From Solimonas sp. K1W22B-7 (GTDB lineage: Bacteria > Pseudomonadota > Gammaproteobacteria > Nevskiales > Nevskiaceae), in NCBI RefSeq assembly GCF_003428335.1, contig NZ_CP031704.1, forward strand, positions 4,030,001-4,094,000: a DNA stretch of 64,000 nt, written 5' to 3'. Position numbers and translations under genes: made by a program. The notes under the pieces are model-generated. The model was not told the origin of the DNA and did not search any database. It was given only the letters and a program-made list of their open reading frames with translations. Position 1 is the stretch's first letter; each line of letters begins with the position of its first letter. Positions 12,422-56,955 of this stretch are shown in pieces.

Positions 12422-12509
12422 ATTCGCAGCTTTGCAGGATGGCCGCTCGCCGGCGCCCTGTTCGCGCCTGCTGCCTTGCCAGCGATCCCAGACTCAAGCG
12501 GAGCAACCC

Positions 12510-13721: not shown

Positions 13722-13752
13722 CCCCTCCCCCATTTTTCGCGAAGAGATTGCG

Positions 13753-14073
13753 ATGGCGCATGTGACCTACATTACCTTCCACGGCAAGGAACAGACCGTC
13801 GAGCTCGGCTCGGGCGTGTCGCTGATGGAAGGGGCGATCCAGAACGACGTCGAAGGCATCGAGTCGATCTGTGGCGGCAACTGCTATTGCGGCATGTGCC
13901 GCGTCTACGTCGCGGAAGCCTGGCGCACGCGTGTCGGCGCAGCCGGAGACTTCGAACTGCCGGTACTCGAAGGCCTGGGCGAAGAACAGCCCGGCGCCCG
14001 CCTGGCCTGCCAGATCCAGGTTTCGGACGCGCTCCATGGCCTGGTCGTCCACCTGCCCGAAAAGCAGGGTTGA
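13753..14073 (+). CDS. [2Fe-2S] ferredoxin, putidaredoxin type
   Basis: A 106-residue electron carrier. The ligands C40, C46, C49 and C86 have the spacing of putidaredoxin. It lies 31 bases after the P450 gene and very likely feeds it. No ferredoxin reductase is adjacent; the only one in the window is at 39328-40551. Confidence 0.93.
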   Translation: MAHVTYITFHGKEQTVELGSGVSLMEGAIQNDVEGIESICGGNCYCGMCRVYVAEAWRTRVGAAGDFELPVLEGLGEEQPGARLACQIQVSDALHGLVVHLPEKQG

Positions 14074-39327: not shown

Positions 39328-40551
39328 TTAGCGACTTAGTTCGGACAAGGGAATGGCCTCATCCGCGATCCTTCCCGGGTCGACCCTCAAGCCGCCGCCG
39401 ATGGCGCGCCGCGCGAACAGATGATCCTGCGGCCGGTTGAGGCTGTCGGCCGCGATCATCCGCCCGGCAAGGAAGTAGAAGACCGTGAACGCCCCGAATG
39501 CGGGATCGCCGCGCAAGACCAGGTGGTCGTGTGGCGCCGAGATACCAGCGATCTGCAGCTTGACGTCGTATTGGTCCGACCAGAACCAGGGCAAGGCCCG
39601 ATAAGGCTTCGTCGCCGCACCGCACAGCGTCGCGGCCGCCGTTCGCGCTTGGTCCGCCGCGTTCTGCACCGACTCCAGCCGCAGGCGCGTACCGGTCCAG
39701 ACACTCGGATGATTCGCGCAGTCGCCGGCGGCCACAATGCGCGGATCGGAGCTGCGAGCGCATTCGTCGACGACGATGCCGTCCCTCACCTCGAGCCCGG
39801 CGACCTCGGCCAGCGCCGTGTTCGGCAGCAGGCCGATGCCGACGAGAACCAGGTCGGCGGCCAGACGCGTGCCATCGGCCAGCACCACCGCACTCACCTG
39901 CGGCATGCCTTCCAGTCCGACCACCTGCACGTTCTTGCGCAGCGTCACGCCGGCGGCGCCATGCAACTTCTCGAAGAAATCCGATACCGCGGGAATGGTA
40001 ACGCGGGACAGCAGCCGATCCTGCGCTTCCAGCACCGTCACCTGCAGGCCGGCGCGCACCGCAGTCGCCGCCACCTCCAGTCCGATGAATCCGCCGCCGA
40101 TGACCACCAGACGCTTGCCGGCGGACCAGTAGTCGCGCATCCGCCGCACGTCGTCGATCGTCCGCAGCGAAAAGACATTGTCCGCTCGTGCCTCGGGCCA
40201 TGGCAGTGCACGATTGCGTCCGCCAGTCGCGATCGCCATGCGGTCGTAGGCAATGGACGACCCGTCCTCAAGCTGCAAGGTTCTGTTCCGGCGATCGATG
40301 CCGCTTGCCCGAACACCGCCGCGGAAATCGATCCCGGCCTCCCGCAGCCGCTGCCCCGACACCAGACTGAGCCGCTCCTCAGGCAGTTCGCCGGCGAGAT
40401 AGGCCTTCGACAGCGGCGGGCGCTGATACGGCATGTGAGTCTCGTCGCCGATCAGCGTGATGCGGCCGCCGAAGCGCAGCTTGCGCAGCTCCGTGGCAAT
40501 CCCGCATCCGGCCTGTCCCGCTCCGACAACGACGATATGTTCCGCGTTCAT
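39328..40551 (-). CDS. Ferredoxin reductase, putidaredoxin-reductase type
   Basis: A 407-residue FAD- and NAD(P)H-dependent reductase of the class that feeds [2Fe-2S] ferredoxins. FAD site G10-A-G-Q-A-G15, YQRPPLSKAYL, NAD(P)H site VIGGGFIGLE near residue 150 and AAGDCANHP near 290. The C-terminal domain has the PWFWSDQYDVKLQIAG pattern of this family. Last gene of the isomerase-dehydrogenase-ligase series on this strand, 92 bases after the ligase. It could serve the ferredoxin at 57100 or the P450/ferredoxin pair at 12.5 kb. Confidence 0.9.
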   Translation of the reverse strand: MNAEHIVVVGAGQAGCGIATELRKLRFGGRITLIGDETHMPYQRPPLSKAYLAGELPEERLSLVSGQRLREAGIDFRGGVRASGIDRRNRTLQLEDGSSIAYDRMAIATGGRNRALPWPEARADNVFSLRTIDDVRRMRDYWSAGKRLVVIGGGFIGLEVAATAVRAGLQVTVLEAQDRLLSRVTIPAVSDFFEKLHGAAGVTLRKNVQVVGLEGMPQVSAVVLADGTRLAADLVLVGIGLLPNTALAEVAGLEVRDGIVVDECARSSDPRIVAAGDCANHPSVWTGTRLRLESVQNAADQARTAAATLCGAATKPYRALPWFWSDQYDVKLQIAGISAPHDHLVLRGDPAFGAFTVFYFLAGRMIAADSLNRPQDHLFARRAIGGGLRVDPGRIADEAIPLSELSR

Positions 40552-40643: not shown

Positions 40644-42215
40644 TCAGGAAACGCGGCGCGAAACGCCAGCCCAGTACGGCTCGCGCAGCCGGGCCTTGAG
40701 AATCTTGCCGGCACCGTTGCGCGGAATCGCATCGACCCGGCTGATCGACCGAGGGACCTTGAATCCGCCGAGATGACGCCGGCAATGCTCCATCAGCTGC
40801 TCCTCGTCGAGTTCCTCGCCGGCGCAGACGACGATGGCCTTCACCGCCTCGCCCCAGCGCTCGTCGGGAACGCCGATCACCGCCGCGTCGGCTACCTGCG
40901 GGAAGCACAGCAGCACCTCTTCCACCTCGGTCGAGGCCACGTTCTCGCCCCCGGACACGATGATGTCCTTCAAGCGGTCGACGATGTGCAGGTAGCCGCT
41001 GCCGTCGAGATACCCGGCGTCGCCGGTGAACAGGAAGCCTTCGCGCAGGGCTTCCTGCGTGGCGTCTGCGCGCTTCCAGTAGCCCGCCATCACCTGCGGG
41101 GCACGCACGCAGATTTCGCCGACCTGGCCGCGGCCGAGTTCCATGCCGTCGCCATCGACGATCCTGAGCACGGCGCCGGCCACTGGCCGTCCCGCCGAGC
41201 CGAGCAGCTGCGCCCGCTCGCCATCCAGCGCGCGGCGGTGATCCTCGGCATCGAGCACCGAAATGACACTGTGCGTCTCGGTCATGCCGTAGATCTGCAC
41301 GAAATCGCAGCCGTAGCGCTGCGCGGCGGCGCGCAGTGTGTCCTCGGTGACTGGCGAAGCGCCGTAGATGATGCTGCGCAAACCATCGAAATCGCGGCGC
41401 CTGCCGCCGCAGGCACTAAGGCAGGCGCGGATCATCGCCGGGACCAGCACCGCATGCGCCACATTGCCGCAGGCCATCAGGTCCTCCGTGACGGCCGGAG
41501 AGAATTCCCGCCGCAGCAACAGGCTGGCCCCCCGGTACACCGACCACAGCGACGCGAAAATTCCGCCGACGTGAAACAACGGCAAGGCCTGGTAGACGCT
41601 TTCGCCGGGCCGCGGCATCAGGTCCACCGCTGCCATCAGCCCGAACTGCTGACCGAGGCAGTTGTGCTCGGTCAGCACCACGCCCTTGGGGCGGCCGGTC
41701 GTACCGGAGGTGTAAACCTGCAGGTAGGCACGCCCGATGTCGGCCGGCGGCGGACGGTCTTCATCGCCCTGCGCCTGCAGCCAGGACTCGAACGAACCCC
41801 AGCCTTCTTCCGCCGGACCCAGCAGCAGCCGTGCCGCCGGCGCGACCCGGACCGGAATCCGTCCCACCAGCGCCGACGCGAACTCCGCCTCGGCGATCAC
41901 CGCGCAACAATCGCTGTCCTCGAGTATCCACCCCATTTCCGACGGCGCAAGCCGGTGGTTGACCGGCACGATCACCGGGCCACCCTTCAGTGCCGCCAGG
42001 ATCAGCAACAGCACCTCCGTGCGGTTGCGCGACACCACGGCGACACGATCGGTCTCGCCGAGCCCCAGAGCGCGGAAGCCGTTGATCAGCCGGCGCACGC
42101 GCTCGGCCGCTTCGGCATAACCCATGCTTCCGAGTTCGCTATCCACCAGCGCCCGCGACGGCGCATGCTGGACGTGATGGTCGAAAGCGCTGAAGGCGCG
42201 GAACGGAACGACCAT
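40644..42215 (-). CDS. AMP-dependent acyl-CoA ligase
   Basis: A 523-residue adenylate-forming enzyme. P-loop YTSGTTGRPKG at residues 168-178, YGMTETHSV as the adenylate motif, and the GDAGYLDGSGYLHIVDRLKD region with the catalytic Lys in NGAGKILKARLR near the C-terminus. It would activate the carboxylic acid from the aldehyde dehydrogenase encoded just upstream, three bases apart, for beta-oxidation. Related ligases act on medium-chain, aryl or cyclic acids. Confidence 0.9.
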   Translation of the reverse strand: MVVPFRAFSAFDHHVQHAPSRALVDSELGSMGYAEAAERVRRLINGFRALGLGETDRVAVVSRNRTEVLLLILAALKGGPVIVPVNHRLAPSEMGWILEDSDCCAVIAEAEFASALVGRIPVRVAPAARLLLGPAEEGWGSFESWLQAQGDEDRPPPADIGRAYLQVYTSGTTGRPKGVVLTEHNCLGQQFGLMAAVDLMPRPGESVYQALPLFHVGGIFASLWSVYRGASLLLRREFSPAVTEDLMACGNVAHAVLVPAMIRACLSACGGRRRDFDGLRSIIYGASPVTEDTLRAAAQRYGCDFVQIYGMTETHSVISVLDAEDHRRALDGERAQLLGSAGRPVAGAVLRIVDGDGMELGRGQVGEICVRAPQVMAGYWKRADATQEALREGFLFTGDAGYLDGSGYLHIVDRLKDIIVSGGENVASTEVEEVLLCFPQVADAAVIGVPDERWGEAVKAIVVCAGEELDEEQLMEHCRRHLGGFKVPRSISRVDAIPRNGAGKILKARLREPYWAGVSRRVS

Positions 42216-42218: not shown

Positions 42219-43670
42219 CTAGCCCCCCATCAGGCCGATCAGGCGCCGGGCAAGGTTGCCGTAGGGCGGGTACAGCAGCTTCAGGCCAGTGAACGAACCC
42301 AGTCCACGCTGCATGAACACCGGCTTGAGATGGGAAAACGTCTCGAAGCCTTCCTGGCCGTGGTAGCGGCCGAAACCGCTGGCACCCACGCCACCGAAAG
42401 GAAGATCGACCTGCAGGAACTGCAGCATCACGTCGTTGATCGACACGCCGCCCGACACGGTCCGATCCAGGACCGCGCGCTGCCGTTCCGACGAGCGTCC
42501 AAAGTAGTAGAGCCCCAGGGGGCGCTCGCCGGCGTTGACGCGCCGGATCGCATCGTCGAGGCCGTCGTGCTCGAACACCGGCAAGACCGGCCCGAAGATT
42601 TCCTCGCGCATGATCCGCGAGTCGGGCGGCGGATTGATCACCAGGGTCAGCGGGAACTTGCGCGCCGCCGCGTGATCGGGCGTGTGCTGCTCGATCTCCT
42701 GGATCACGGCACCCGCCTCGCGTGCACCCTGTACCAGCGACTGCAGCCGCTCGTAGGCGCGGGGATCGATCACCGAGCTATAGCTGCTTTCGCCGGCACC
42801 GCGCGGGAAATGCGCCAAGTAGTGCCGCGACAGCGCGCTGGCGAATGCCGCCAGGCTGCCCTTGGGCAGCAGGACATAGTCGGGCGCCACGCAGGTCTGC
42901 CCGGCATTGAAGGTCTTGCCCCAGAGGATGCGGTGCGCCGCTTCCTCGATCGGGTAGTCGGCGTCGACGATGACCGGGCACTTGCCACCCAGCTCAAGCG
43001 TGACGGGAGTCAGGTTCTGCGCGGCGGCAGCCATCACCATCCGTCCCACGCGGGTCGACCCGGTGAACAGCAGGTGATCGAACGGCAGGCTGGAGAACGC
43101 GGCGGCGACGCCGGCATCGCCGCCGATGATTGCGATCTCGCTCTCGTCGAAGGCCAGCGCGATCAGCCGCTTCAGGGTCTCGGTGGTTGCCGGGGTCAGT
43201 TCCGACATCTTGACCATGGCGCGGTTGCCGGCCGCCAGGGCCGAGGCCAGCGGCGCTACGGCGAGATTCACCGGATAGTTCCACGGCGCCATCACGCCGA
43301 CCACGCCCAGCGGTTGCGGCAGCACGCTATTGGAGCCTGGCAGGAACCAGATCGACGTCGAGCGCCGGCGCGATCGCATCCAGCGGCGCAGGTTGCGGAT
43401 CGCATAGTGGATGTTGGCGACGGTGCCGCCGATCTCGGCAATGCGCGATTCCTCGGTCGAGCGATGACCGAAATCCTGCGCCACCGCCTGGATGATCGCC
43501 GGCGCATTTTCGACGATCAGCGCATGCAGGCGCCGCAGCCGGTCGATGCGCACCTGCAACGGCGGATTGCTGTCGCGCTCGAAAGCCATGCGCTGCGCAT
43601 TGAATATCGCTCGCAGGGAGGATTGCCTCGTCGAACCCGCAATATCCCTTTCGATGGAAACTGCACTCAT
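42219..43670 (-). CDS. Aldehyde dehydrogenase, coniferyl aldehyde dehydrogenase type
   Basis: A 483-residue NAD(P)-dependent ALDH. Catalytic Glu226 in LELGGK, Cys260 in GQTCVAPDYVL, the cofactor motif FTGSTRVG, and an N-terminus (SLRAIFNAQRMAFERDSNPP) typical of the CalB/long-chain family. The start MSAVSIERD follows AGGAG. The ligase begins three bases after its stop, so product acid would pass directly to CoA activation. Confidence 0.9.
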   Translation of the reverse strand: MSAVSIERDIAGSTRQSSLRAIFNAQRMAFERDSNPPLQVRIDRLRRLHALIVENAPAIIQAVAQDFGHRSTEESRIAEIGGTVANIHYAIRNLRRWMRSRRRSTSIWFLPGSNSVLPQPLGVVGVMAPWNYPVNLAVAPLASALAAGNRAMVKMSELTPATTETLKRLIALAFDESEIAIIGGDAGVAAAFSSLPFDHLLFTGSTRVGRMVMAAAAQNLTPVTLELGGKCPVIVDADYPIEEAAHRILWGKTFNAGQTCVAPDYVLLPKGSLAAFASALSRHYLAHFPRGAGESSYSSVIDPRAYERLQSLVQGAREAGAVIQEIEQHTPDHAAARKFPLTLVINPPPDSRIMREEIFGPVLPVFEHDGLDDAIRRVNAGERPLGLYYFGRSSERQRAVLDRTVSGGVSINDVMLQFLQVDLPFGGVGASGFGRYHGQEGFETFSHLKPVFMQRGLGSFTGLKLLYPPYGNLARRLIGLMGG

Positions 43671-43751
43671 TTTCCGGCACTCCTGCTTTGCGATGATGCG
43701 CACACTCTCGCGGATGCCGCCGGCCACTTCCCCGATCGAAAGGTCTGCCCA

Positions 43752-43777
43752 TAAAAAAAACCCAGTCGATGGGCTCG
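43752..43777 (-). terminator. Terminator between isomerase and dehydrogenase genes
   Basis: Leftward, AGCCCA-TCGAC-TGGGTT forms a 6-bp stem with a G-T pair, followed by a run of eight T (the A-run at 43753-43760). It lies between the end of the isomerase-like gene (43846) and the start of the ALDH gene (43670). Confidence 0.65.
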
Positions 43778-43845
43778 TCCTGGGCCAAGTGGGGGAAGGG
43801 ATTCCTGCAGGCGGCAAAGGCAAGCCAGCCGCCGCCGGCGACGCT

Positions 43846-44319
43846 TCAGTCCAGCGGCTTGGCGCGCAGCAGCAACACCACCGCCACGGACAGGGTCACG
43901 GCGCCCAGCAGCGCCGGAAAGAAAGCCACCGCGCCTGCGAGGCTGGCTTCGCCCAGGCGATTGGCCTGCAGCGTCAAGCCGTGGTTCGGCGCGAACATGC
44001 CGAACAGGTAGAAACAGAAGTTGCCCCAGACCGCGACGATCGTCCCCCAGCAAACCCAGGCCGCATCGCTGCCTCGCAGCGAGAACCAGCGCAGGCAGGC
44101 CCCGAGCAGGATCGCCATCAGCCCGTTCATCATCATTCCTAGATGCACGATGCGCCAACCCTGGGGGGTTCCCGGCACGGCTACGTCGATGAACACCGGC
44201 AACGGCGACAAGGAAATCGCGCCGATCATGGAGAACAGCAACACGAAGCCGCCGAGCAAGGACACCAGCATCGCGGCAAGCCCATGCTTGATCAGCCGGG
44301 TCGAATGTAGGTAATGCAT
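43846..44319 (-). CDS. Styrene-oxide-isomerase-like membrane protein
   Basis: A 157-residue protein with four predicted transmembrane helices, the size and topology of StyC. StyC converts styrene oxide to phenylacetaldehyde by a Meinwald rearrangement and binds haem b. Two segments match StyC: VPGTPQGWRIVH with GMMMNGLM, and FYLFGMFAPNHGLTLQANRLG (core FYLF-x2-F-x-PN-x-GLT). H59, N65 and Y104 fall at the positions I recall as the haem ligand and catalytic residues in StyC (H58, N64, Y103). The start follows GGAG; the longer ATG at 44331 is less likely. Its neighbours supply the next two steps, aldehyde to acid to CoA ester. No StyAB epoxidase is present, so the substrate may be another epoxide. 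Confidence 0.75.
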   Translation of the reverse strand: MHYLHSTRLIKHGLAAMLVSLLGGFVLLFSMIGAISLSPLPVFIDVAVPGTPQGWRIVHLGMMMNGLMAILLGACLRWFSLRGSDAAWVCWGTIVAVWGNFCFYLFGMFAPNHGLTLQANRLGEASLAGAVAFFPALLGAVTLSVAVVLLLRAKPLD

Positions 44320-44531: not shown

Positions 44532-47312
44532 ATGTCCAGGAAAAGCACGGGGGCGCTGCCCGAAAGCCTGATCACGACCAAGCTGAATCCACCCGAACTG
44601 GATTCCCGGCTGATTTCGCGCAAGGCGCTGGTCGATCGACTGCTCAACGGCGAGGCGAGGCGCACGGTAATCAGTATTGTCGCCGCGGCGGGCTCCGGAA
44701 AGTCGACCCTGATGGCCCAGCTGCGCCAAGCCCTGCGGGATGGCGGAGTCAGCACCTGCTGGATCAGTCTCGACGCGGACGACGACAGTCCCGCGGCCTT
44801 CGCCACCTACTTCATCTCCGCACTGGCGGCACTGGACATGCCGGTAGCCCAGCGCGAACTGGCACTGCAGCGTGCCAATCCGGCACGCGATTTCGAGGTG
44901 CTGTTCGACAACCTCATCGCGCAGATTTCCGCCCTGCGGGGCGAATCCGCGATCTTCCTCGACGACTTCCAGCACATCCGCGACGAGCGCGTCCTGCGCT
45001 TCATCAACAAGCTGATCGCGCACGCGCCGCCATCGGTCCGCACGATCATCGCCAGCCGCGCGCGCCTGCCCCTGGACCTGGCCCGCCAGCGCATCTCCGG
45101 CCAGCTCGCCGAGGTCGAACAGGACGAGCTCAACTTCGATTCCACGCAGGCCGCCGATTTCCTGCTGCGCTCGCACGAGCTGAGCCTGCAGCCGGAGGAC
45201 CTGGCCACGCTGCTGACGACCACCGAGGGCTGGCCGACCGGCCTACAGCTCGCCGCGCTGGCGCTGCGCCGGCATCGCGGTCCGGCGAGCGAACTGATCA
45301 ACCAGTTCTCCGGACGCGACAAGGATCTCACCAGCTATCTGGTCGAGGCCGTACTGCGCAGCCAGCCCGAGGCCGTGCGCAAGTTCCTGCTGCTGACCGC
45401 GCCGCTGCGGCGCATGTCGCCCGACCTGTGCCAGGCCGCCTCCGGCCATCCGAACAGTGCCGAAATGCTGGCCTACCTGGCCCGCAGCAATCTCTTCGTG
45501 ATCGCGCTGGACCGCAACGAGCAGTGGTACCGCTACCATCATCTGTTCGCCGAGTTCCTGCAGAACGAACTCAAGCGCAGCAATCCGGAGGCCTTCCTGC
45601 AGGTCTGCGATCACGCCGCGCAATGGTGCGAAGCCCAGGGCCAGACCACCGAGGCGATCCAGTACGCGCTGGACGGCCACCGCTACGAGAAGGCCAGCGA
45701 TCTCATCGCCGACCGTGCACCGATGGTCTCGCAGGCCCATGGCGACCACTACACGATCCTCGACTGGATGCGACGCCTGCCAGCCCCGTACCACGAGCGC
45801 CGGCCCGAGATCGGCCTTAGCCATGCGTGGTCGCGTGCGTTCTCGCGCGACACCGACCTCGCCATGGCTCTCACCGACCGCGTCCTGCAGCGTCTGCGCG
45901 ACGACAACGACGGCTGGCGACTCAGCGAGGCCGAAAGGCATCGCCTGAAGCTGCTGGCGCGCGTGATCCAGGCGATCGCCAAGGCCTGCTCGGACGAGAT
46001 CGAGGAATGCATCTCCCGCAGCCAGGAGCTGCGCAAACAGATTCCGGAAAGCGAGCCATTCCTGATCGCCTCGATCTGCAATTGCATTGGATACAGCCAC
46101 TTCGCCCGGCGCGAATTCGAAAGCAGCGCACGCGCCGCCGCCGACGCCTACCTGTACGGGCATCGCGCCGGCGCGGCCTATGCCACGGTGTGGGCCGATT
46201 TCCTGCACGGGGTCGCCGATGTGGAGTTGGGGCGCCTGCGCACTGCTCAGGAGCACGGGCACCGCGCGGAGAACGTCGCCGGCACCGAGAGCGGCACCGC
46301 CAAGAGCTATTCGGCCGCGCTGGCCGCCCTGCTCAATGCCGACATCTCCACGCAGCGTTGCGAGTTCGACCAGGCGAAGACCTACATGGAAACGGGCCGC
46401 TCGTTCACCGCGCTGTTCGGACCCTTGGAACCGCTGCTGGTGGCGATCCGCAACGACGCACGCATCCACGCCTGGCGTGGCGACCTGGACGCCGCGCGGC
46501 GTGTGCTGATGCAGGGACAAGACACGGCTCTGAGTACCAGCCAGCCGCGGCTATTTCTCAACCTGGCGATCGAGGAAGTGACCCTGCAGCTGCGGGCCGG
46601 CGATATTTCCGGCGCGCTGCAGACCGCGCAGCGCGCACGCCTGCGCGACGACAGCAGTTCGGTACGCAACGCCGACAGCTCGCGCGGCTCGCGCGACGCC
46701 CTGCAACTGATGGAAGCGCGCCTGCTGCTCGCCGAGGACAACCCGGAGGGCGCATTGCGTTGCCTCAACCTGCTGCAGAACTCCCCCGCGGCAAAGGCCG
46801 GCGGCGGTGTCAACCTGACCCAGAGAACCCTCAAGGCCGTCGCGCTGTGGCAGAGCGATCGCGGAGCCGAGGCCGTGCGGGAACTGGATCGGGCCTTGAG
46901 TCTCGGCACGCCGGAACTGCATACCTATCCCATCGCCTCGGCCGGCCGCGCGCTGCTGCCGATCCTGCAGGCCATCGACCAGCGCCGCGCCGACACAGCG
47001 GCAGGCGGCGACCTGCAGGCCAAGCGCGACATGGAGGGCCGGTTGATCTCGCTGCTGACCGGCGAAAAACCGAATCGCGGTGGCACCCATCCCGACGCGG
47101 TCGATCCCGGAATATCCTCGGAGGCCCTGACCCTGCGCGAAATCGAACTGTTGCGCCTGGTCGAGGCCGGCCTCGCCAACCGCCAGCTTGCCGATGCCCT
47201 GCTGATCTCCGAAGCCACGGTCAAATGGCATCTGCACAACATCTACTCCAAGATCGGCGTCCGCAACCGCACCGCCGCCGCGACCCGGGCGCGGGAGCTG
47301 ACGCTGATCTAG
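44532..47312 (+). CDS. Large LuxR-family regulator, MalT/STAND type
   Basis: A 926-residue ATP-dependent activator. NTPase P-loop G54-S-G-K-S-T59, a Walker B-like FLDDFQHI near 140, a helical TPR-like region through the middle, and a C-terminal LuxR helix-turn-helix (ALTLREIELLRLVEAGLANRQLADALLISEATVKWHL, split here as LTLREIELLRLVEAGLAN and LLISEATVKWHLHN). Members integrate a small-molecule inducer and ATP. Start follows AGGAG. It is divergent from the isomerase-ALDH-ligase series and probably activates it and the operon to the right. Inducer unknown. Confidence 0.92.
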   Translation: MSRKSTGALPESLITTKLNPPELDSRLISRKALVDRLLNGEARRTVISIVAAAGSGKSTLMAQLRQALRDGGVSTCWISLDADDDSPAAFATYFISALAALDMPVAQRELALQRANPARDFEVLFDNLIAQISALRGESAIFLDDFQHIRDERVLRFINKLIAHAPPSVRTIIASRARLPLDLARQRISGQLAEVEQDELNFDSTQAADFLLRSHELSLQPEDLATLLTTTEGWPTGLQLAALALRRHRGPASELINQFSGRDKDLTSYLVEAVLRSQPEAVRKFLLLTAPLRRMSPDLCQAASGHPNSAEMLAYLARSNLFVIALDRNEQWYRYHHLFAEFLQNELKRSNPEAFLQVCDHAAQWCEAQGQTTEAIQYALDGHRYEKASDLIADRAPMVSQAHGDHYTILDWMRRLPAPYHERRPEIGLSHAWSRAFSRDTDLAMALTDRVLQRLRDDNDGWRLSEAERHRLKLLARVIQAIAKACSDEIEECISRSQELRKQIPESEPFLIASICNCIGYSHFARREFESSARAAADAYLYGHRAGAAYATVWADFLHGVADVELGRLRTAQEHGHRAENVAGTESGTAKSYSAALAALLNADISTQRCEFDQAKTYMETGRSFTALFGPLEPLLVAIRNDARIHAWRGDLDAARRVLMQGQDTALSTSQPRLFLNLAIEEVTLQLRAGDISGALQTAQRARLRDDSSSVRNADSSRGSRDALQLMEARLLLAEDNPEGALRCLNLLQNSPAAKAGGGVNLTQRTLKAVALWQSDRGAEAVRELDRALSLGTPELHTYPIASAGRALLPILQAIDQRRADTAAGGDLQAKRDMEGRLISLLTGEKPNRGGTHPDAVDPGISSEALTLREIELLRLVEAGLANRQLADALLISEATVKWHLHNIYSKIGVRNRTAAATRARELTLI

Positions 47313-47397: not shown

Positions 47398-48300
47398 ATG
47401 AAGCCCGTTTCGGAACACCCGATGGACGCCTTTCCGGTGCGTCCGCTGCAGTTCCAGGTCGAGAAGATCCGCTCGCGCGATCTGGTCTGGAGCCGCACCT
47501 GCCCGGAATTCTCGATGTTCATCAATGCGCTGGGCATCCATGTGCCCTATTTCGAACGCTACCTGGTCCGCGCGCTGACCAAGGCACGCACACAGATCAA
47601 GGACGAACGCCTGCTGCGCGATATCTCGGCGATCATCGGACAGGAGGCCCACCACGCGAAGAACTTCATCCATCTCAACCAGGTGCTGGCGCTGCGCTAT
47701 CCCAGGGTCGCCCAGATGGAAGCGGCAGCGAGGGACTACTTCGCCGAGCACGCGAAGAAGGACTCGCTCAGGCAACTGGTCGGCTACACCGCCGGCTACG
47801 AGACCTTCACCTTCCTCGCCGGCATGATCATCCTGCAGAACTACGATCGCTGGTTCGCCGACTCCGAGCCGGTGATCAAGGCCATGTGGGTCTGGCACCA
47901 GGTCGAGGAGGTCGAGCATGGTGCGGTGGCCTTCGAGGTCTACAAGCACCTCTACGGCGACGACGAGCTGTATCGCAAGCGGATGGTGCTGAAGGCCCTG
48001 GCGCACATCGCCGGCGAAACCATCAAGGCCTATACCCACATGGCGCGGGTCGAGGGCTGGTTGCGCAACCCGTTCCGCGGCGCCGTCCGGCTGGGCTTCT
48101 GCGGGCTCATGCTGCTGCGTCTGCTGAAGAGCGCGCTGCCGGTGTTCCGCAAGGACTACCACCCGCGCCGCCATCCGCTGGTCACCACGCAGCAGAACCC
48201 GATCCAGATCGCCTGGCGCCGCTATGAAAGCCGCGGCGGCGACGTGCTGGAGATCGACCGGGCGAAGATGGCCCGGATCATGGGCGTGGAGCCGGCCTGA
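47398..48300 (+). CDS. Predicted metal-dependent hydrolase (PF10118, ferritin-like di-iron)
   Basis: A 300-residue helical protein of the COG3687 group. Two metal-ligand pairs are visible: E83-A-H-H86 and, after E135 in GYETFTF, the E170-E-V-E-H174 sequence. The spacing fits a four-helix di-iron centre. The family is annotated as a hydrolase but is not biochemically settled; a di-iron oxygenase role is equally possible. Strong SD GGAGGAG. It is convergent with the DUF1329 gene, 6 bases apart. Confidence 0.82.
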   Translation: MKPVSEHPMDAFPVRPLQFQVEKIRSRDLVWSRTCPEFSMFINALGIHVPYFERYLVRALTKARTQIKDERLLRDISAIIGQEAHHAKNFIHLNQVLALRYPRVAQMEAAARDYFAEHAKKDSLRQLVGYTAGYETFTFLAGMIILQNYDRWFADSEPVIKAMWVWHQVEEVEHGAVAFEVYKHLYGDDELYRKRMVLKALAHIAGETIKAYTHMARVEGWLRNPFRGAVRLGFCGLMLLRLLKSALPVFRKDYHPRRHPLVTTQQNPIQIAWRRYESRGGDVLEIDRAKMARIMGVEPA

Positions 48301-48306: not shown

Positions 48307-49686
48307 TCACACCGCGCCCAGGCGCATCAGCGCCGCACTGGTCAGGTACTTCTCGTAGATGCCGGCATCGTTGACGCTGGTCGCGTGTCCGCCGGAGATC
48401 GCGCGCACCTGCTCCAGCCGCGTCATGCGCCCGGTCTGGATATCGAAGGCATGCACATGCCCCCAGGACCAGTACGGATGCGCGCCATCCATGAAGGACT
48501 TTGCGCCCGCCTCGTAGAGGCCGTAGGCGCCGTCGAACGAGCGATAGGCCTCGCCACGGCGGTCGTAGGACACCATGGCGATCGGCAGCTGCGTGCGTGC
48601 ATCGAACCAGACGCGCTTGCGGCTGATCGGTGCGCGCGGAAACTTCACCGGCTCGGCTTCCACCGCGATCGCCTCGGGCACCAGTTCGACCGTGGTGTCC
48701 CAGAACGTCTTGCCCTTGGGCCCACCGTGGACGCGGTGCTCCCAATTCGGATGCTGGGCATTCCACGCACCGGATACGGCCGCCAGCATCGGACCGCGGC
48801 CGACGATGCGATAGTTGCCCCAGGTATACAGCGGATCGCCCGCCGTCCAGGCATCCGAGAGATACAGCGTCGAGCCCGGGATCAGCGGCTCGAAACGCTG
48901 GTCGGTGGGAAACTGGCGGATGCGCTTGTAGGCCGGCAGGTAGCCGTAGAGATCCGGAAAGCGATGCTGGTCGTAGGGCCAGACGTTCAGGAACGACGTG
49001 CCCTTGATGCTGTCGGGCGTCTGGAAGAAGATCGACTGATACCGCAGCTTGTCCTCCTTGCCCGGCCAGTACGGCCGCGGCTGCAGCGACACGCGGCAGA
49101 CCGGCGACAGCTCCGACCAACCCGCCTGGTACTGGAACAGCACGTCCCCCTCCGCCGACAGGTCGTATTCCTTCACCGCGTAGAACGAAGCATCGTGGCG
49201 CCCCCAGCTCAGCGTCAGCCCGGCGAACAGCTCCAGCGCCGACTGCGCGGCGGGGAACGGATTGCCGCCGATCCACGGCCTGCCCTCCGCCGTCACCACG
49301 TTGCCGTCCGCTGCGAAACGCGCCTGGCCCTTGTTGCGCAGCGTGGCCTCCACATACTCCCAGGGGCTCAGGCGCAGGATCTCCGTCGTCGTCCTGGCCA
49401 CGCGCAGTCGCCGCCCCATGTCACGAACCTGCAGATACTTGATAGGCTCCAGCAGGTCCTTGACCCACTCGACATTGGCCGCCGTGATCTCGTCGCCGGT
49501 CTTGATCCTGCCGCGCGTGTACATCTCGATCGACAGCAGTTCCTCGGGGTAGGCGGCAGCGGCATCGCCGCTGGCGGCGATCGCATCCCATAGCGGCATC
49601 AGCACACCTGCCGCGGCGACGCCGCGTGCGGTCTGCGCCAGGAAGTGACGCCGGCTACAGGCGCGGTCGTATCGCAGGAACTTCAT
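48307..49686 (-). CDS. DUF1329 outer-membrane-associated protein (second copy)
   Basis: A 459-residue DUF1329 protein with a twin-arginine-like start CSRRHFLAQTARGVAAAG and conserved segments SIEMYTRGRIKTGD, PWIGGNPFP and RFPDLYGYLPAYKRIRQFP. About 460 residues is the usual length. A paralogue lies at 53009; the two bracket the YCF48 and DUF1302 genes. The family accompanies DUF1302 and RND proteins, probably in moving hydrophobic substrates across the envelope; the mechanism is unknown. Confidence 0.9.
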   Translation of the reverse strand: MKFLRYDRACSRRHFLAQTARGVAAAGVLMPLWDAIAASGDAAAAYPEELLSIEMYTRGRIKTGDEITAANVEWVKDLLEPIKYLQVRDMGRRLRVARTTTEILRLSPWEYVEATLRNKGQARFAADGNVVTAEGRPWIGGNPFPAAQSALELFAGLTLSWGRHDASFYAVKEYDLSAEGDVLFQYQAGWSELSPVCRVSLQPRPYWPGKEDKLRYQSIFFQTPDSIKGTSFLNVWPYDQHRFPDLYGYLPAYKRIRQFPTDQRFEPLIPGSTLYLSDAWTAGDPLYTWGNYRIVGRGPMLAAVSGAWNAQHPNWEHRVHGGPKGKTFWDTTVELVPEAIAVEAEPVKFPRAPISRKRVWFDARTQLPIAMVSYDRRGEAYRSFDGAYGLYEAGAKSFMDGAHPYWSWGHVHAFDIQTGRMTRLEQVRAISGGHATSVNDAGIYEKYLTSAALMRLGAV

Positions 49687-49764: not shown

Positions 49765-51906
49765 TCAGAACTGATAGGTCAGGCGCAGCGTGAATTCATC
49801 TGCGAAACCCAGCGAGGACACCACGTTGTCGTTGGGATTACCGCCCAGGTCGCCGTTGATGTAGGTGTAGAACCCCTCGACCGTCACGTCGCCGCTGGGC
49901 TTCCAGCGCAGGCCCGGCTGCAGCAGCGCCCCGCCCTTCAGATCCACCAGCGTGGCGAACTCGACCTGGTAGATCTGGTTCGGGAAGGGCTGCAGGAAGG
50001 CCATCACCAGGTAGTTCGAACCGCCCGATTGGCCCGGCGACTGTTCCTGCTCGCTGCCGCCGTAACCCTTGAGTGAGCGGCCCACCAGATCGCTCTTGGT
50101 CTTGTGCATGCCCTGGAACACGATATAGGTGCCGGGGAACTCGTTGAAGAAACGATGCCACTTGTCCATCACCAGCGCGACGGTCAGCTCGCGCTCCTTC
50201 AGGTAATTGCGGCTCAGCGAGGGGTTGGTGAATCTGCGGTCCGGCACGTACATCGCTTCCAGGTTGAAGATCAACTGGTCGAAGAAGCTGCCGGGCTCGC
50301 CCTCGTTGACGTAGCTGATGCCGCCGCCGAGATTGGTCTCCTGGAAATATTCTCGCGCCAGGTGACCACGCAGACTGCCGCCGGCTGCCATGAAGAAGGT
50401 GTTGAGCTCGTGCGTCGCTTCTTCATAGTTGCCCGCGACCGAAGCATAGAGATCCTGCACTGCCGGAAACTCCAGGACCGCCGAGTTCAGGCCGTCGGTG
50501 CCCGCGAGCCGCGCATCTGCGGCGTAGTAGAACCACTCGTTGGCGGAATACACGCCACCAGGCGCCACCTCGAACGGCGTATGTGCCAGGGCCTCGCCGG
50601 TGCTGCCGTACTGACCCGACACAGCGTAGCTGGCATTGACCAGCCCGCCCAATCCCGAGTTGGGCAAGTCGCGGTTGACACCCGACTCGGTCCAGCGGAA
50701 TACGCCATCCGGGTTGAAGCGCCGCGCCGCCACCGCCTGGAAGCCCCACTGGCCGTAGTCGCCCTTCAGGCGCAGACCGTAGCTGATCTCGTTGTCGTAC
50801 TTGCCGGCCGCGTACATGTCGTGAATCGTGAACTGTGTCGGGATGATGTTGTAGGGCGTGTTGGGATTGGGGTAGATCGTCGGCTGGAACTTCTGTACGT
50901 AGGCATCCGCGAGGATATTGTCGGTGGCCTGGAAGGTGGCGCGGATCGCCAGCGAGGGCACGCGCTTGTCGCCGTACTCCTCGACCGCGCGGTCGAGGAT
51001 GAAGTGACGCCGGTAGTCGATGCCGTCCGGCACATCGAGCACCCGGAAGAAGATCGCCTGCCCCCAGGCGATCTGCTGGTTGCCGATGCGAACGTTGAGC
51101 GGACCATTGGTGTAGTCCAGCAGCAGCGCCGGAAAATACACCATGTAGTCGTCGCCGGACCATTCCAGCGGATTCGGACTCTTGTCGCCCTCCACGCGGT
51201 ACTGGAAGTAGTTCGGTGCGCCCTGGTACAAGGCCGGGTCGCCGCCGGCGATGCCACCGCCCTGCAGGTCGGCGACGCTCGCCGCATCGAACTGGCTGTA
51301 GTGCCCCGGATCGAAGAGTCCGCGTATACGGCCGATGATCGACCAGTTCGAGTTGAACTTGACCGCCACCTCGGTTTCGGCGCGCACATAGTGCATGTTG
51401 AAGGTATTGCCGGATTCCGGCACCGGGCGGCGCACCTCGTCCTGAAAGCCCAGGACCGTCAGCGGCAAGGTATTCCAGGTCCCGATGTCGGGCAAGGGCA
51501 GGCCCAGCCCGCCGGTGATGTTCCCCAGCAGCGCCGGCGGCGCATACGCCGTGCGCTGTATCGTGCGCTTGTTGAACACATTGCCGCGCTGGTTGTTGGG
51601 ATTCTCGGAGCCCGTGGAAATCGCGAACTCCGGACGGATGAAGCCACCGAAGCTGATGTCGAAGTCGCTGCCGAACAGCCCCGCGAAGAACCCTTCGTCC
51701 GGTGTGGATTCGACCGCCTGCTCCTCGATCGGCTGCGGCTCCGGCACCTGCGGCTCGGTCGCAACCGCTTCGACCGCCTGGGACTCGGTCGCCTGCACTT
51801 CAGCCGGAGGGGTCTCCCCCTGGGCCTGAACCGCGCCGACGGCACAGCCCAGCAGGATTACCGCTCCCCAGTGACGCCGCCCCTGCATATGTTCGATGCT
51901 GCGCAT
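49765..51906 (-). CDS. DUF1302 outer-membrane protein
   Basis: A 713-residue beta-barrel-like protein. Signal peptide ending VQA near 30, then a 40-residue Glu/Pro/Val/Gln-rich tether, then the DUF1302 barrel starting DFDISFGGFIRPEFAIS and ending in Phe (RLTYQF), as expected of an outer-membrane protein. SD AGGAG. The tether is longer than in typical members. Neighbours are YCF48 and two DUF1329 genes; a channel for a hydrophobic compound is the working idea. Confidence 0.88.
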   Translation of the reverse strand: MRSIEHMQGRRHWGAVILLGCAVGAVQAQGETPPAEVQATESQAVEAVATEPQVPEPQPIEEQAVESTPDEGFFAGLFGSDFDISFGGFIRPEFAISTGSENPNNQRGNVFNKRTIQRTAYAPPALLGNITGGLGLPLPDIGTWNTLPLTVLGFQDEVRRPVPESGNTFNMHYVRAETEVAVKFNSNWSIIGRIRGLFDPGHYSQFDAASVADLQGGGIAGGDPALYQGAPNYFQYRVEGDKSPNPLEWSGDDYMVYFPALLLDYTNGPLNVRIGNQQIAWGQAIFFRVLDVPDGIDYRRHFILDRAVEEYGDKRVPSLAIRATFQATDNILADAYVQKFQPTIYPNPNTPYNIIPTQFTIHDMYAAGKYDNEISYGLRLKGDYGQWGFQAVAARRFNPDGVFRWTESGVNRDLPNSGLGGLVNASYAVSGQYGSTGEALAHTPFEVAPGGVYSANEWFYYAADARLAGTDGLNSAVLEFPAVQDLYASVAGNYEEATHELNTFFMAAGGSLRGHLAREYFQETNLGGGISYVNEGEPGSFFDQLIFNLEAMYVPDRRFTNPSLSRNYLKERELTVALVMDKWHRFFNEFPGTYIVFQGMHKTKSDLVGRSLKGYGGSEQEQSPGQSGGSNYLVMAFLQPFPNQIYQVEFATLVDLKGGALLQPGLRWKPSGDVTVEGFYTYINGDLGGNPNDNVVSSLGFADEFTLRLTYQF

Positions 51907-51956: not shown

Positions 51957-52934
51957 TCACTCGAATCGCAGAATCTTCCCGGCGTTGCCCACGACCAGCG
52001 GTGTCCCGCCTTCGGGACGTGCCACGCCGACATACCAGGACGAGGCCACCGCCGCGTCGGTGAAACGGCGCCAGGTCTTGCCGTCGTCCCGGCTGAAGTA
52101 CATGGCATGCATGGCAGTGATCAGCACATGCCCGTTGGCAGCGGAACTCACGCCGAGCAGGATCGACTTGGCGGCCAGACGCGTCGACCTCCACGACAGA
52201 CCCCCGTCGCTGCTGCGCAGGATGGTTCCGTCCTGCCCGACGGCATAGCCGATACCGTCGGCGCGGATATCCAGCGCGAACAGCGACGCATCGTCCTTGT
52301 GATTGACCGGATCGCCCTTGTGCAGCAGCGTCCATTGTCGGCTGTCCGCGCTGTAGCGCAGGATCGTGCCGAGCTCGCCGACCACCGTGGCGGTGCCCTG
52401 GTCGTCGAGTTGCACCGCGTACAGGTGCGGCTGGAAGCCCTCGCCCTGCGCGGCCATGAAGCTCATCCAGTCGGGCGCGATCGAGGTCCAGCTGCGGCCA
52501 CGGTCCGACGAGGCCAGCACCGTGCCGAAGGACCCCACGGCAATCGCATCGCCCCTGGCGTTGATCGACACCGACAGCAGGCGCTCCTGGGTGCCGCTGG
52601 CCATCTGCGCCCAACCGGAACCACCGTCACGCACCAGGATCAACCCCATCTGCCCCACCGCCACACCGAGCGACTCGCGGACATCGACGCCGAGCAATGT
52701 CAGCGGCGAAGGCGATGCTGCCCTTGTCCAGGTCGCGCCACCGTCCTGCGTCGCCTGGATTTCACCGCCTGCGCCGACCGCTACGCCCACCTTGCCGTCG
52801 AACGCCACGCCCAGCAGGGCCTGATGGAGCGTGCCGCCGGTCACCTGCGTCAGCTTCGGCGCCGCAGATGCCGCGCAGATGCCCGCAAGCGATAGCACGA
52901 CGGCGCAAAAGGCCGTCCGTAAATCTCGATTCAT
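51957..52934 (-). CDS. YCF48-related exported beta-propeller
   Basis: A 325-residue protein with a signal peptide ending SAAP and seven or so repeats of the AVGxxGxIxxTxDGGxTW type (AVGAGGEIQATQDGGATW, ILRSSDGGLSW), as in photosystem II stability factor YCF48 and BNR-repeat proteins. In bacteria this family sits next to DUF1302, DUF1329 and RND genes, suggesting it helps assemble or stabilise that envelope machine. SD GGGAG. Confidence 0.85.
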   Translation of the reverse strand: MNRDLRTAFCAVVLSLAGICAASAAPKLTQVTGGTLHQALLGVAFDGKVGVAVGAGGEIQATQDGGATWTRAASPSPLTLLGVDVRESLGVAVGQMGLILVRDGGSGWAQMASGTQERLLSVSINARGDAIAVGSFGTVLASSDRGRSWTSIAPDWMSFMAAQGEGFQPHLYAVQLDDQGTATVVGELGTILRYSADSRQWTLLHKGDPVNHKDDASLFALDIRADGIGYAVGQDGTILRSSDGGLSWRSTRLAAKSILLGVSSAANGHVLITAMHAMYFSRDDGKTWRRFTDAAVASSWYVGVARPEGGTPLVVGNAGKILRFE

Positions 52935-53008: not shown

Positions 53009-54391
53009 TCAGACCGATCCCAGGCGCTGGATCGCCTGCTGCGTGAAGAAGCGGTTGTACATCTCGTCGCTGTCGCCACGGAGCAGGCTCTTGTAGCCGC
53101 CGGTGATCTCCTCGGCATGCTCGGCGCGGCTCATGCGGTTGGCCTGGATGTCGTGGCACATCACGTAGGTCCAGGACCATTCGGGCGTCTTGCGGCCCGG
53201 TTCCAGCATCACCTTGTCGCCGTCGACCATCTGCCCGGAGCCGGTTTCGAAATTAACCCAGGGTTGGCCGTTGCGGTCGTAGCGGACCTCGCCGCAGTAC
53301 ATGCCGTTGCGGACGTCGATCCACGCGCGCTTCTTGCTGCAGGGCGCACGCGGATAGCCGGTCGGCTCCATCTCGACTTCGAGAACCTCCGGCGCCAGCT
53401 CGTACTCGGTGTCGAAGAAGGTCAGGCCCTTGGCGCCGCCATGCACGCCCTTCTCCCAGTTCTTGCTCTTGCCGGCCCAGTTGCCGGACCAGGCACCGAG
53501 CATCGGCTTGCGCGAAATGACCTTGAAGTTGCCCCAGGTCAGCATCGGATCGCCGGCATACCAGGGATCGGTGAGGAACCAGGTCACGCCCGGGATCAGC
53601 GGCTCGAAGCGCTGGTTGGTAGGGAACTGGCGCACACGCTTGAACTGCGGCAGGTAGCCGTAGAGATCCGGATACTTGCGCTGGTCGTAGTACCAGATGC
53701 TGAGGAAGGAGCTGCCAGCCACGTCCTGCGACGAGGTGAACAGCACCGTCTGGTAGCGCATGAACTCCTTCTTGTTCTGGAAGATCTTGCCGTCCATGCG
53801 ATTGGTGGCCTGCAGCTCGGCCCAGCAGAAGTCGTACTTGTAGGCGATCTTGCCTTCTGGCGAGATGTCGGTCTCGCGGATCGCGTACTGGCAGTAGTCG
53901 TGCTTGCCCCAGCTCAGCGCCAGGTTGCCGATCGCCTCCTGTGCGGTCTTCGGATCCAGGAACGGCGCGCCACCCATCCAGGGGCCGCCGTCCGGCCCGT
54001 AGATGTTGCCGTCGGCACCGAACTTGGCCTTGCCGCGGTTGCGCAGGCTGGCCTCGAGGAAGCTCGCCGGGAACATGGTCGTCACGTCGCGCGTGGTCGC
54101 TCTGATCTTGATCTTGCGGCCGAGATTCTTGATCTGCAGATAGACGATGGGGTCCAGAAGTTCCTTGACCACCTCGACGTTGGCCGAGGTGATCATGTCG
54201 CCGGTCTTGATCTTGCCCTTGGTGTACATCTCGATCGAGGTGAGTTCGTCGGGATAGACCTTGCCGATGTCGGCCGCTTCACCCAGTACCGGCCACAGCG
54301 GTGCCAGGACACCGGCAGCGGCAGCGCCCTTGGCCGCCTTCTCCAGAAGCATGCGACGGCCGTAGTTGAAATCGTATTTCTTGATCCACAT
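53009..54391 (-). CDS. DUF1329 outer-membrane-associated protein (first copy)
   Basis: A 460-residue paralogue of the protein at 48307: YGRRMLLEKAAKGAAAAG start, SIEMYTKGKIKTGD, PWMGGAPFLDP, KYPDLYGYLPQFKRVRQFP. It is the second gene after the RND protein in transcription order, 68 bases after it. SD GAGGAGAG. Having two DUF1329 genes in one operon suggests two different roles or substrates. Confidence 0.9.
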   Translation of the reverse strand: MWIKKYDFNYGRRMLLEKAAKGAAAAGVLAPLWPVLGEAADIGKVYPDELTSIEMYTKGKIKTGDMITSANVEVVKELLDPIVYLQIKNLGRKIKIRATTRDVTTMFPASFLEASLRNRGKAKFGADGNIYGPDGGPWMGGAPFLDPKTAQEAIGNLALSWGKHDYCQYAIRETDISPEGKIAYKYDFCWAELQATNRMDGKIFQNKKEFMRYQTVLFTSSQDVAGSSFLSIWYYDQRKYPDLYGYLPQFKRVRQFPTNQRFEPLIPGVTWFLTDPWYAGDPMLTWGNFKVISRKPMLGAWSGNWAGKSKNWEKGVHGGAKGLTFFDTEYELAPEVLEVEMEPTGYPRAPCSKKRAWIDVRNGMYCGEVRYDRNGQPWVNFETGSGQMVDGDKVMLEPGRKTPEWSWTYVMCHDIQANRMSRAEHAEEITGGYKSLLRGDSDEMYNRFFTQQAIQRLGSV

Positions 54392-54459: not shown

Positions 54460-56955
54460 TCAGGTGGGTTCCGGTTGCAGCCGCGCCGGCAGCAGGTCCG
54501 CCGGATCGTCCTGGTTCTCGGACGTCTCGGGTTCCGGCGTGCCGTCGCCGGATTCGGTGAACAGCGACAGGTCGACGCCCTCTCCGACGAGAAGGTCCTT
54601 GCGCTTCACGAACTCCGGCTTCACCAGCCAGACCAGCAGTGGCAGCACGACCAGGGCGAGAACCATGTTGATCAGCATGGTCAGCGTCAGCAGCAGGCCC
54701 ATGTCCGCCATGAACTTGAGCGCGGACAGGAAGTACCAGGGCACGATGCCGATGAACATGATCGAGGCGGTGAACATGATCGCCTTGCCGGTCGTGGTCA
54801 GGGAGGCATCGATCGCGCGGCTCCAGTTCTGGTCGTGCGCGTGAAACTCCTCGCAGATGCGCGACAGCAGGTAGATGCCGTAGTCGATGCCGACACCGAC
54901 GCCGATCGCGGCCACCATCAGGGAATTGATGTCCAGGCCGATGCCGATCATGTGCATCGACGCGTTCAGGATGAAGTTGGCGAGGTTGACCGGGAACAGC
55001 AGGATCAGGCCGGCAACCAGGGATCTGTAGGCCCAGCTGGTGCCGATGAAGATCACCAGGTTCAAAAGGCCGATGATGACCCAGTGATAGCGCTCCACCA
55101 CGTGATTGGTGGCCTCCTGCAGCGCGATCGTGCCGGTGCCTAGGCGCACCGTGAAATCCTTGTGGTCGGCACCGACCTTGGCAACCGCATCGCGTGCCGC
55201 CGCCAATGCCGCGGTCACCGTGCTCTGCTTGTTGTCCTGGTACCAGAGCGACACCGTGGAATGCTGCTGCTCGAAGTCGACCACGTGCGAGAAGTTCTTG
55301 GCATTGGTACCGAAGGTCACCGCCGTGGCCGCGGCGCTGATCGCACGATCAGTGGGATCCAGTGCGTACCACTTCGGGTTGCCGCCGGAGAACAGCCGGT
55401 TGCCCTCCATCATGTAGTCGGCAAAGGACAGGTCGGCGCGCGGCGGCGCGGCGCTGTGCTCCATCAGCACCTGCAGCTGCTGGGCGATCATCACCGTTTC
55501 CGCCTGTCGCGCGACGCGGTTCGGGTTGTCCATGTCCTTCGCTTCGAGGACGATTTCCAGGGTGTTGACGCCCGGAAAGTGGCTGTTGATCTGCCGCACC
55601 GCCGTGTTGAACTCGGAGTCCTCCCACAGCAAACTGCTGCCCTCGACCGGATTGCCGATCCTGATCTGCAGCGCGGTGTAGACCGCGAAGATCGAGATCA
55701 CCGCGACGACCGCCGTCGTCAGGCGTGCGGTCTTGCCGTAGGTCAGCTTCGACAGGCCGCCAAGGGTTTTCTTGAACGCCTTGTGCATGCCCGAGTCGCC
55801 TTCCTTGCCGATCAGCCGGCCGACGTTGCGCGGCGCCGGCAGGGCCGACAGCAGCAGCGAGATCAGCACGACACCGGTGGGGATCAGCCAGATGCACCAG
55901 AAGCCGCAGAACAGGGCGAAGCGTTCCATCGCCGGGATCGGCGCCAGCGCGATGAGGAACACGCCGACGATGTCGGTGAAGATCCCGAGGATGCTGGGTG
56001 CCATCATCACACCCATCGTGATCTCGGCCGCCTTCACGCGATCCTTCACGTGCCAGTACACCTCGTAGTAGCGCTCGGTGAATTGCACGCAATGCGAGAA
56101 CGAACGCGCCACCAGCAGCAGCGGCACCACCATCAGCAGCGGCTCGATCGGCGACTTGATCCAGCCGGTCAGACCGAAACCCCAGATCGCGGCCACCAGG
56201 CTGGTCAGGATCGGCGTGACCACGCCGACGATATTGCGCATGTACAGCGCAAGTGCGACCACCAGCGCCGTCAACGTCACCGCGAAGATGCCGAAGGTCT
56301 GGCTTTGCAGGTGATAGACCCAGCCGGTCAGCATCGGCTGCCCGGCCACGTAGACCTCGTGATCGGCATCGCGCGCCTCGGTGGCGAGCTTGTGCACGAA
56401 ATCGAAGGCTTCGCCGTAGTCGAGGCGCTGCTCGATGAAGGTCGCATTGATCAGTGTCGCCGTGCCGTCGTTGGAGATCAGGAAAGTACGGGCGTTGGGC
56501 GACTGCTCGACGCGGCGGCGGAAATCCGCGACTTCGGCCTTGCTGTCCGGAACCCTGTCGCCCATCAGGGGACGCATGTCGATGCCGAACGGCGTCGCCT
56601 CCGCGTAGCGCGCTTTCTCGGTGGCGATCGAAAGGATCTGGTCGTGGTCCACGCCGGGGGCCAGGTCGATGTCGCGGGTCAGCTTCCAGACCTTCGCCAG
56701 CGTGACGGGGTTGTAGATGTCTCCGTCCTTGCGCTTCACCATGATGGTCATGGTCAGCGGGTTGCCGAAGTTCGGATGGTCCTTGAACACCTGGACGTAG
56801 GGATCGTCCTTGGGCAGGAGATCGGAGAAGATCGTCTTGAGCTGCACATTCGGCAGGCCCGCGGCGAAGAACAGCGTGACGAGTACGAACAGCACCGTCG
56901 AGGCGGTCCGGTGCTGCATCACCCATTTCGCGATCCTGAATCGCAGTGGCTTCAT
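54460..56955 (-). CDS. RND-superfamily exporter-like protein (COG1033/MMPL)
   Basis: An 831-residue protein with about 12 transmembrane helices in two halves, each with a large periplasmic loop, as in MmpL/HpnN-type RND proteins. The first loop starts near residue 40 (FSDLLPKDDPYVQVFKDHP), and the second half has TATLINATFI. The sterol-sensing-like membrane cores (WGFGLTGWIKSPIEPLLMV; GVGVGIDYGIYLLSRICEEF, given here in part as GVGIDYGIYLLSRICEEF) are clear. Proton-driven movement of a hydrophobic compound or lipid between the inner membrane and periplasm is the family role. Second gene of the operon, 144 bases after the ferredoxin. Confidence 0.9.
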   Translation of the reverse strand: MKPLRFRIAKWVMQHRTASTVLFVLVTLFFAAGLPNVQLKTIFSDLLPKDDPYVQVFKDHPNFGNPLTMTIMVKRKDGDIYNPVTLAKVWKLTRDIDLAPGVDHDQILSIATEKARYAEATPFGIDMRPLMGDRVPDSKAEVADFRRRVEQSPNARTFLISNDGTATLINATFIEQRLDYGEAFDFVHKLATEARDADHEVYVAGQPMLTGWVYHLQSQTFGIFAVTLTALVVALALYMRNIVGVVTPILTSLVAAIWGFGLTGWIKSPIEPLLMVVPLLLVARSFSHCVQFTERYYEVYWHVKDRVKAAEITMGVMMAPSILGIFTDIVGVFLIALAPIPAMERFALFCGFWCIWLIPTGVVLISLLLSALPAPRNVGRLIGKEGDSGMHKAFKKTLGGLSKLTYGKTARLTTAVVAVISIFAVYTALQIRIGNPVEGSSLLWEDSEFNTAVRQINSHFPGVNTLEIVLEAKDMDNPNRVARQAETVMIAQQLQVLMEHSAAPPRADLSFADYMMEGNRLFSGGNPKWYALDPTDRAISAAATAVTFGTNAKNFSHVVDFEQQHSTVSLWYQDNKQSTVTAALAAARDAVAKVGADHKDFTVRLGTGTIALQEATNHVVERYHWVIIGLLNLVIFIGTSWAYRSLVAGLILLFPVNLANFILNASMHMIGIGLDINSLMVAAIGVGVGIDYGIYLLSRICEEFHAHDQNWSRAIDASLTTTGKAIMFTASIMFIGIVPWYFLSALKFMADMGLLLTLTMLINMVLALVVLPLLVWLVKPEFVKRKDLLVGEGVDLSLFTESGDGTPEPETSENQDDPADLLPARLQPEPT

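Follow-up and report, generated by a model that had tools for sequence, protein, structure and literature searches.

The window analyzed here, a 64,000-nucleotide stretch of the Solimonas sp. K1W22B-7 genome (contig NZ_CP031704.1, positions 4,030,001 to 4,094,000), encodes a 157-residue membrane protein of the styrene oxide isomerase (StyC) superfamily at 43846..44319 on the minus strand. The chances are somewhat better than even that the surrounding genes form a cluster for the breakdown of a hydrophobic alkene or aryl-alkene, in which a nearby PF10118 (Metal_hydrol) protein (47398..48300, +) epoxidizes the substrate and the isomerase, an aldehyde dehydrogenase (ALDH) and a coenzyme A (CoA) ligase follow. 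The first-pass annotation described the cluster as lacking an oxygenase. This has to be revised, since PF10118 is present as a candidate together with a ferredoxin and a ferredoxin reductase; within the material searched, its pairing with the isomerase provides a new candidate epoxidase which that annotation overlooked. The claim that there is no styrene monooxygenase agrees with a search for StyA at E 1e-20, which finds none in this genome (StyB was not searched for separately) and is positive in 11 of 58 genomes of the family, though one of these matches has just 30% identity.

Recurrent pairing of PF10118 with isomerase homologues

The 58 genomes, that of the Solimonas strain among them, belong to its family, in which Nevskia, Solimonas, Hydrocarboniphaga and Stenotrophobium are named members. 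Together 36 of them carry 96 isomerase homologues. Within 6 kb, 56 of these homologues have PF10118, 9 StyA, 5 an AlkB-like desaturase-family protein, 4 a flavoprotein and 22 none of these; contig ends and the length of flanking sequence retrieved (about 6-10 kb) limit the counts. With two oxygenase types nearby, StyA took precedence, as in three StyA loci that had a flavoprotein match as well; one locus (L070) was counted as PF10118 despite an AlkB-like match 5.6 kb away, and an isomerase fragment in L031 (27.5 bits) was removed before the census. From PF10118 copy numbers about 2 neighbors within 6 kb would be expected by chance; within 1 kb the expectation is 0.48 and the observation 48 of 96, so chance neighborhood is rejected, with the caveat that the genomes are related and these figures are not a probability. 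The first-pass annotation had proposed looking for a conserved epoxidase beside homologues of the isomerase, and the outcome is positive for a candidate: PF10118 is within 6 kb in 22 of the 26 members of the window's isomerase clade.

The tree of PF10118 proteins under-samples copies without an isomerase because most loci were picked via the isomerase; counts starting from the PF10118 side serve as a check. Close orthologues of the window PF10118 protein occur in 21 of the 58 genomes, namely 20 with a close isomerase orthologue and G029, where the PF10118 copy stands alone; the other 20 copies are separated from an isomerase homologue by 54 to 3633 bases. A sister PF10118 clade has 26 members in 22 genomes. 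An isomerase homologue is found within 1 kb of 25 of them (24 on the same strand), and the sole unpaired member is cut by a contig end. One member of this second clade (L031:4593-5624, genome G044) is split over two open reading frames (ORFs) adjoining an isomerase homologue, and shares its contig with a window-type pair. Two clade-edge isomerases without PF10118 (L089 and L090) lie, as judged by eye, near a small DUF4345-like membrane protein, a possible other partner.

In broader samples, isomerase homologues (E 1e-5) occur in 5 of 369 genomes in a sample of the class and in 2 of 398 in a sample of the phylum, the Solimonas genome being counted in both, and it is the only one of the 369 with a PF10118 protein of the window's clade (clade I, E 1e-60). 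In three loci of the class sample, from two genera of one other family (L101, L103 and L104), and in one of the phylum sample (L157), a distant isomerase and PF10118 are immediate neighbors in the same orientation. Of the other two loci from the class sample, L102 is a StyAB cluster and L100 has no PF10118 on its 9.7 kb contig. Viral contigs gave no confirmed relative (8 pattern matches), and none of six matches in plasmid records spans 80% of the query.

The PF10118 protein

The 300-residue protein is assigned to PF10118 with 157 bits (gathering cut-off 33.2). It carries E53, E83xxH86, E135 and E170/E171xxH174, and this pattern of E, ExxH, E and ExxH on four helices is kept in 63 of 63 or 64 of 64 PF10118 rows. 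We take the pattern to be that of ferritin-like diiron proteins, and the structure model likewise has the fold of such proteins. No family other than PF10118 matches up to E 1, so membership in the PF02332 hydroxylases is rejected. Searching PDB sequences with the PF10118 profile yielded only weak matches, to unrelated proteins (best E 0.02), and no link between PF10118 and the StyC-type isomerase family was found in the open-access literature searched. An epoxidase role in the cluster is plausible for the protein.

PF10118 has matches in 56 of the 58 genomes, the Solimonas genome included. Several of the other PF10118 copies of the Solimonas genome (L093-L099) are, by eye, near TetR regulators, Baeyer-Villiger monooxygenase-like flavoproteins or DUF1302/DUF1329 genes, and no isomerase was found near the copies at these loci.

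The isomerase

The earlier observation that the 157-residue protein is of the StyC family and keeps H59, N65 and Y104 is confirmed. It has a significant match to the StyC model, to the solved isomerases in both sequence and structure, and to their fold. A profile or structure placing it outside the family did not arise, although its score against the StyC equivalog NF045734 (96.2 bits) is under the curated cut-off of 150. The identity to StyC is 27% in the structural alignment and 37-38% over 59% of the query in sequence alignment. H58, N64, N99 and Y103 of the Pseudomonas sp. VLB120 enzyme correspond to H59 (the predicted heme b ligand), N65, N100 and Y104; the VLB120 sequence, taken from a plasmid record, carries the expected letters at these numbers and at D95 and R112.

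The VLB120 study reports that heme b is bound by H58 and that N64, D95, N99 and Y103 form the substrate network, with N99A and Y103A inactive and N64A and D95A substantially impaired (PMC11374702). For Rhodococcus RoSOI1, another study describes a loss of heme and activity in H57A, a loss of much activity in membranes in R111A and retention of whole-cell activity in D94A (PMC12502698). By our reading of the numbering, these residues are equivalent to H58, R112 and D95 of VLB120. Since RoSOI1 whole cells stayed active without the equivalent of D95, this residue is not taken as family-defining.

A census of 107 isomerase homologues (L155-L157 are in neither the census nor the tree, and L090 was left out of alignment A3 for in-frame stop codons) shows the heme-ligand histidine in all 107 rows. 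At VLB120 positions 58, 64, 95, 99 and 103 the window's clade has the signature H-N-A-N-Y in 26 of 26 rows, with alanine (A96 in the window protein) in place of D95, and H at R112 in 21 of 26. StyA-linked isomerases read H-N-D-N-Y (12/12, two of which are references), and those linked to AlkB-like proteins or flavoproteins H-N-T-N-Y (9/9). Aspartate at position 95 is otherwise found only in two unlinked rows. Therefore, the window protein keeps the catalytic core and differs at the position which marks the styrene type. In the tree of the 107 rows, the StyA-linked isomerases group together (100/92), and the 26 rows of the window's clade, 22 of them PF10118-linked, form a different clade (99/99). 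The protein is a real member of the StyC superfamily in a separate clade, and it is likely to function as an isomerase.

Family membership and gene order would also suit an ordinary variant of the styrene pathway, in which StyC acts on styrene oxide and is followed by ALDH and a phenylacetate-CoA-type ligase. This is improbable given a score of 96 of the 150 bits needed, the separate clade, the loss of D95, the absence of StyA from the genome search and a ligase whose nearest model is one for long-chain fatty acid ligases. On the first four of these points plain StyC identity is rejected.

Apparent exchange of the oxygenase

The strongest argument for PF10118 being an oxygenase is that oxygenases of known type hold its place in two loci, L037 and L155. 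Genome G001 has two sister isomerase copies in the window's clade (100/97); L039 has PF10118, and in L037 the isomerase lies instead between a flavoprotein and a flavin reductase. The flavoprotein matches PF13450 (24.9 bits, cut-off 21.9) and no other family at cut-off, and the reductase passes the StyB cut-off (216 against 200 bits); the flavoprotein is presumably a monooxygenase. This isomerase is also among the 22 without a counted neighbor. L155, from another class, has an isomerase 61% identical to that of the window with the same residue signature, an ALDH (56%), a MalT-like regulator (46%), MMPL and DUF1329 genes, and a PF02332 alpha subunit with a beta subunit and TmoB; no PF10118 is among the genes called in 20 kb. 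These swaps suggest that the oxygenase is exchangeable while the isomerase is retained. In L138, one of the 22 unlinked loci, the isomerase homologue is about 0.3 kb from a PF02332 hydroxylase (L138:4402-6741), and a ferredoxin-reductase-like gene is seen by eye further along.

Two other arrangements recur. Five isomerase homologues (L055, L061, L063, L066 and L117) have an AlkB-like membrane protein less than 3 kb away (PF00487 in L055), and in the first four CoA ligase, enoyl-CoA hydratase or acyl-CoA dehydrogenase genes are nearby by eye; these loci look like another uncharacterized epoxide pathway. In L057, L059, L062 and L067 the isomerase homologue adjoins a conserved flavoprotein that is not StyA (56-69% identity among L057, L062 and L067) and is possibly an epoxidase.

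Evidence against the proposed functions

Several observations weigh against an isomerase supplied by PF10118. The window's clade carries at D95 the change that impaired the VLB120 enzyme as D95A, and the heme-steadying arginine (R112) is mostly absent from it. Of 39 distant isomerases linked to PF10118, 9 retain Y103 and 18 retain N99; either these copies carry out other chemistry, or the protein does something besides isomerization. The invariant histidine, the loss of the catalytic tyrosine in 30 of these 39 while pairing persists, and tandem isomerase copies adjoining one PF10118 gene would fit a protein which is not an isomerase but a heme b membrane partner of the PF10118 oxygenase (an electron carrier, a holder of heme or substrate, or an anchor). 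This is unlikely for the window protein. N64, N99 and Y103 are kept in 26 of 26 rows of its clade, a close ALDH homologue adjoins the isomerase in five loci, and such isomerases also occur with the flavin system of L037 and the PF02332 monooxygenase of L155, known relatives of which use their own reductants. The tandem pairs are in L052, L064, L105, L106, L107, L112, L116 and L119, each beside a single PF10118 gene. The tyrosine position is S in one copy (A in L112) and F in the other; therefore, neither copy has the catalytic tyrosine.

Three further points count against PF10118 as the epoxidase: the chemistry of the family is uncharacterized, the genome has 11 PF10118 copies and a single isomerase, and a second oxygenase system lies 30 kb from the isomerase. 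The latter is a cytochrome P450 (PF00067, 12381-13721) followed by a ferredoxin-like ORF with the motif CGGNCYCGMC (together 12381-14073, +). The protein may isomerize an epoxide that comes from this P450 or from another locus, with PF10118 performing another step. This is unlikely, as 21 of the 25 other clade loci have PF10118 as well (no search for the P450 was made in them) and known oxygenase types occupy its place in L037 and L155. The preferred reading remains that PF10118 supplies the epoxide.

Surrounding genes

ALDH and then a CoA ligase were said to follow the isomerase, and this gene order is found. The ALDH (42219..43670, -) scores 274 bits against Pfam Aldedh and 330 against its best NCBIfam model, MdlD (cut-off 550). 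The AMP-binding acyl-CoA ligase (40644..42215, -), which begins 3 bases past the ALDH stop, is closest to the NCBIfam long-chain-fatty-acid CoA ligase PRK06187 (468 bits, cut-off 476). Next is a flavin adenine dinucleotide ferredoxin reductase (39328..40551, -), closest to the AndAa/HcaD models with scores below their cut-offs and with a homologue of 39% identity in L100. A MalT-like LuxR-type regulator (44532..47312, +), its start being assigned to an ATG with a ribosome-binding site, is divergent from the isomerase gene. The [2Fe-2S] ferredoxin (PF00111; 57100..57450, -), missed by a DNA pattern search and found by protein search, is 64% identical to a ferredoxin near PF10118 in L031.

ALDH and ligase occur together in four of the 26 clade loci (the window, L035, L075 and L100), and most clade loci hold isomerase and PF10118 only. 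Most of the window layout recurs outside the family in Zhongshania aquimaris (L075), with identities of 63% for the isomerase, 58% for ALDH, 47% for the ligase, 42% for the regulator, 67% for PF10118, 40% for the ferredoxin, 66% for MMPL, 60% for DUF1329 and 39% for YCF48; DUF1302 and the ferredoxin reductase have no match in 20 kb of this locus.

The first-pass annotation also saw the surroundings as those of a hydrophobic-compound degrader, and the AmeABCD-like genes agree with it. An RND/MMPL transporter (54460..56955), a DUF1329 protein (53009..54391), a YCF48/BNR protein (51957..52934) and a DUF1302 protein (49765..51906), all on the minus strand and resembling AmeD, AmeB, AmeC and AmeA, respectively, form one block with a second DUF1329 protein (48307..49686, -). 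The first four match the composition of AmeABCD as defined in PMC6394551, where Castellaniella AmeA-D are DUF1302, DUF1329, COG4447 and RND proteins for export of apolar monoterpenes and their deletion lowers monoterpene tolerance. In Pseudomonas putida, the use of Tween 20 requires DUF1302/DUF1329 genes (PMC10866462). By analogy with these precedents the substrate is probably hydrophobic; terpene, alkene and aryl-alkene are not distinguishable. Ring-substituted styrene oxides are reported substrates of known isomerases (PMC5874493). Overall, the first-pass interpretation is partly supported.

Proposed pathway

In the proposed pathway, PF10118 would act as a diiron oxygenase, served by the ferredoxin and ferredoxin reductase of the cluster, and epoxidize a double bond. 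The isomerase would hold ferric heme b through H59, with the heme as Lewis acid, and Y104, N65 and N100 would place the epoxide oxygen for the Meinwald rearrangement to an aldehyde. ALDH would oxidize the aldehyde, the ligase would then form the CoA thioester, and the AmeABCD-like system may limit the toxicity of the apolar substrate.

A wider reading is put forward tentatively, at a little under even odds. PF10118 may contain a new class of ferredoxin-dependent diiron epoxidases with heme b membrane isomerases of the StyC superfamily as dedicated partners. Such pairs would then be how this chemistry mostly occurs in the family, the styrene pathway being a special case, and PF10118, flavin, AlkB-like and PF02332 enzymes would be able to replace one another in the oxygenase position. 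The present results offer a testable function for part of PF10118 and show that, within the family of the Solimonas genome, the StyC superfamily extends far beyond styrene degradation. A Meinwald isomerase that uses heme b, differs in its active-site network and is paired with a diiron oxygenase of its own would be useful for the conversion of alkenes to aldehydes.

Comparison with known systems

The window protein is homologous to StyC of Pseudomonas sp. VLB120 (PDB 8PNU/8PNV) and Rhodococcus opacus 1CP and has the heme histidine, N64, N99 and Y103 in common with it; it differs in A at D95, H at R112, its separate clade and PF10118 nearby instead of StyAB. With styABCD the cluster shares the logic of oxygenase, epoxide isomerase and aldehyde dehydrogenase. 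However, its epoxidase candidate is a diiron protein rather than a two-component flavin enzyme, it has a CoA ligase and its own ferredoxin and reductase, and a MalT-like regulator is present where VLB120 has StySR. PF10118 is annotated as a predicted metal-dependent hydrolase, whereas the ligand pattern and model fold of the window member point to a ferritin-like diiron protein. The diiron ligand pattern and bundle are common to PF10118 and the soluble diiron monooxygenases of PF02332 (soluble methane monooxygenase, toluene-4-monooxygenase), but PF10118 is a separate sequence family; a true PF02332 member is in the L155 cluster and another is beside the L138 isomerase. DUF1302, DUF1329, YCF48/COG4447 and RND genes stand in one block both here and in AmeABCD of Castellaniella defragrans; the window block has an extra DUF1329 gene and, among the 25 other clade loci read, finds a match only in that of Zhongshania aquimaris.
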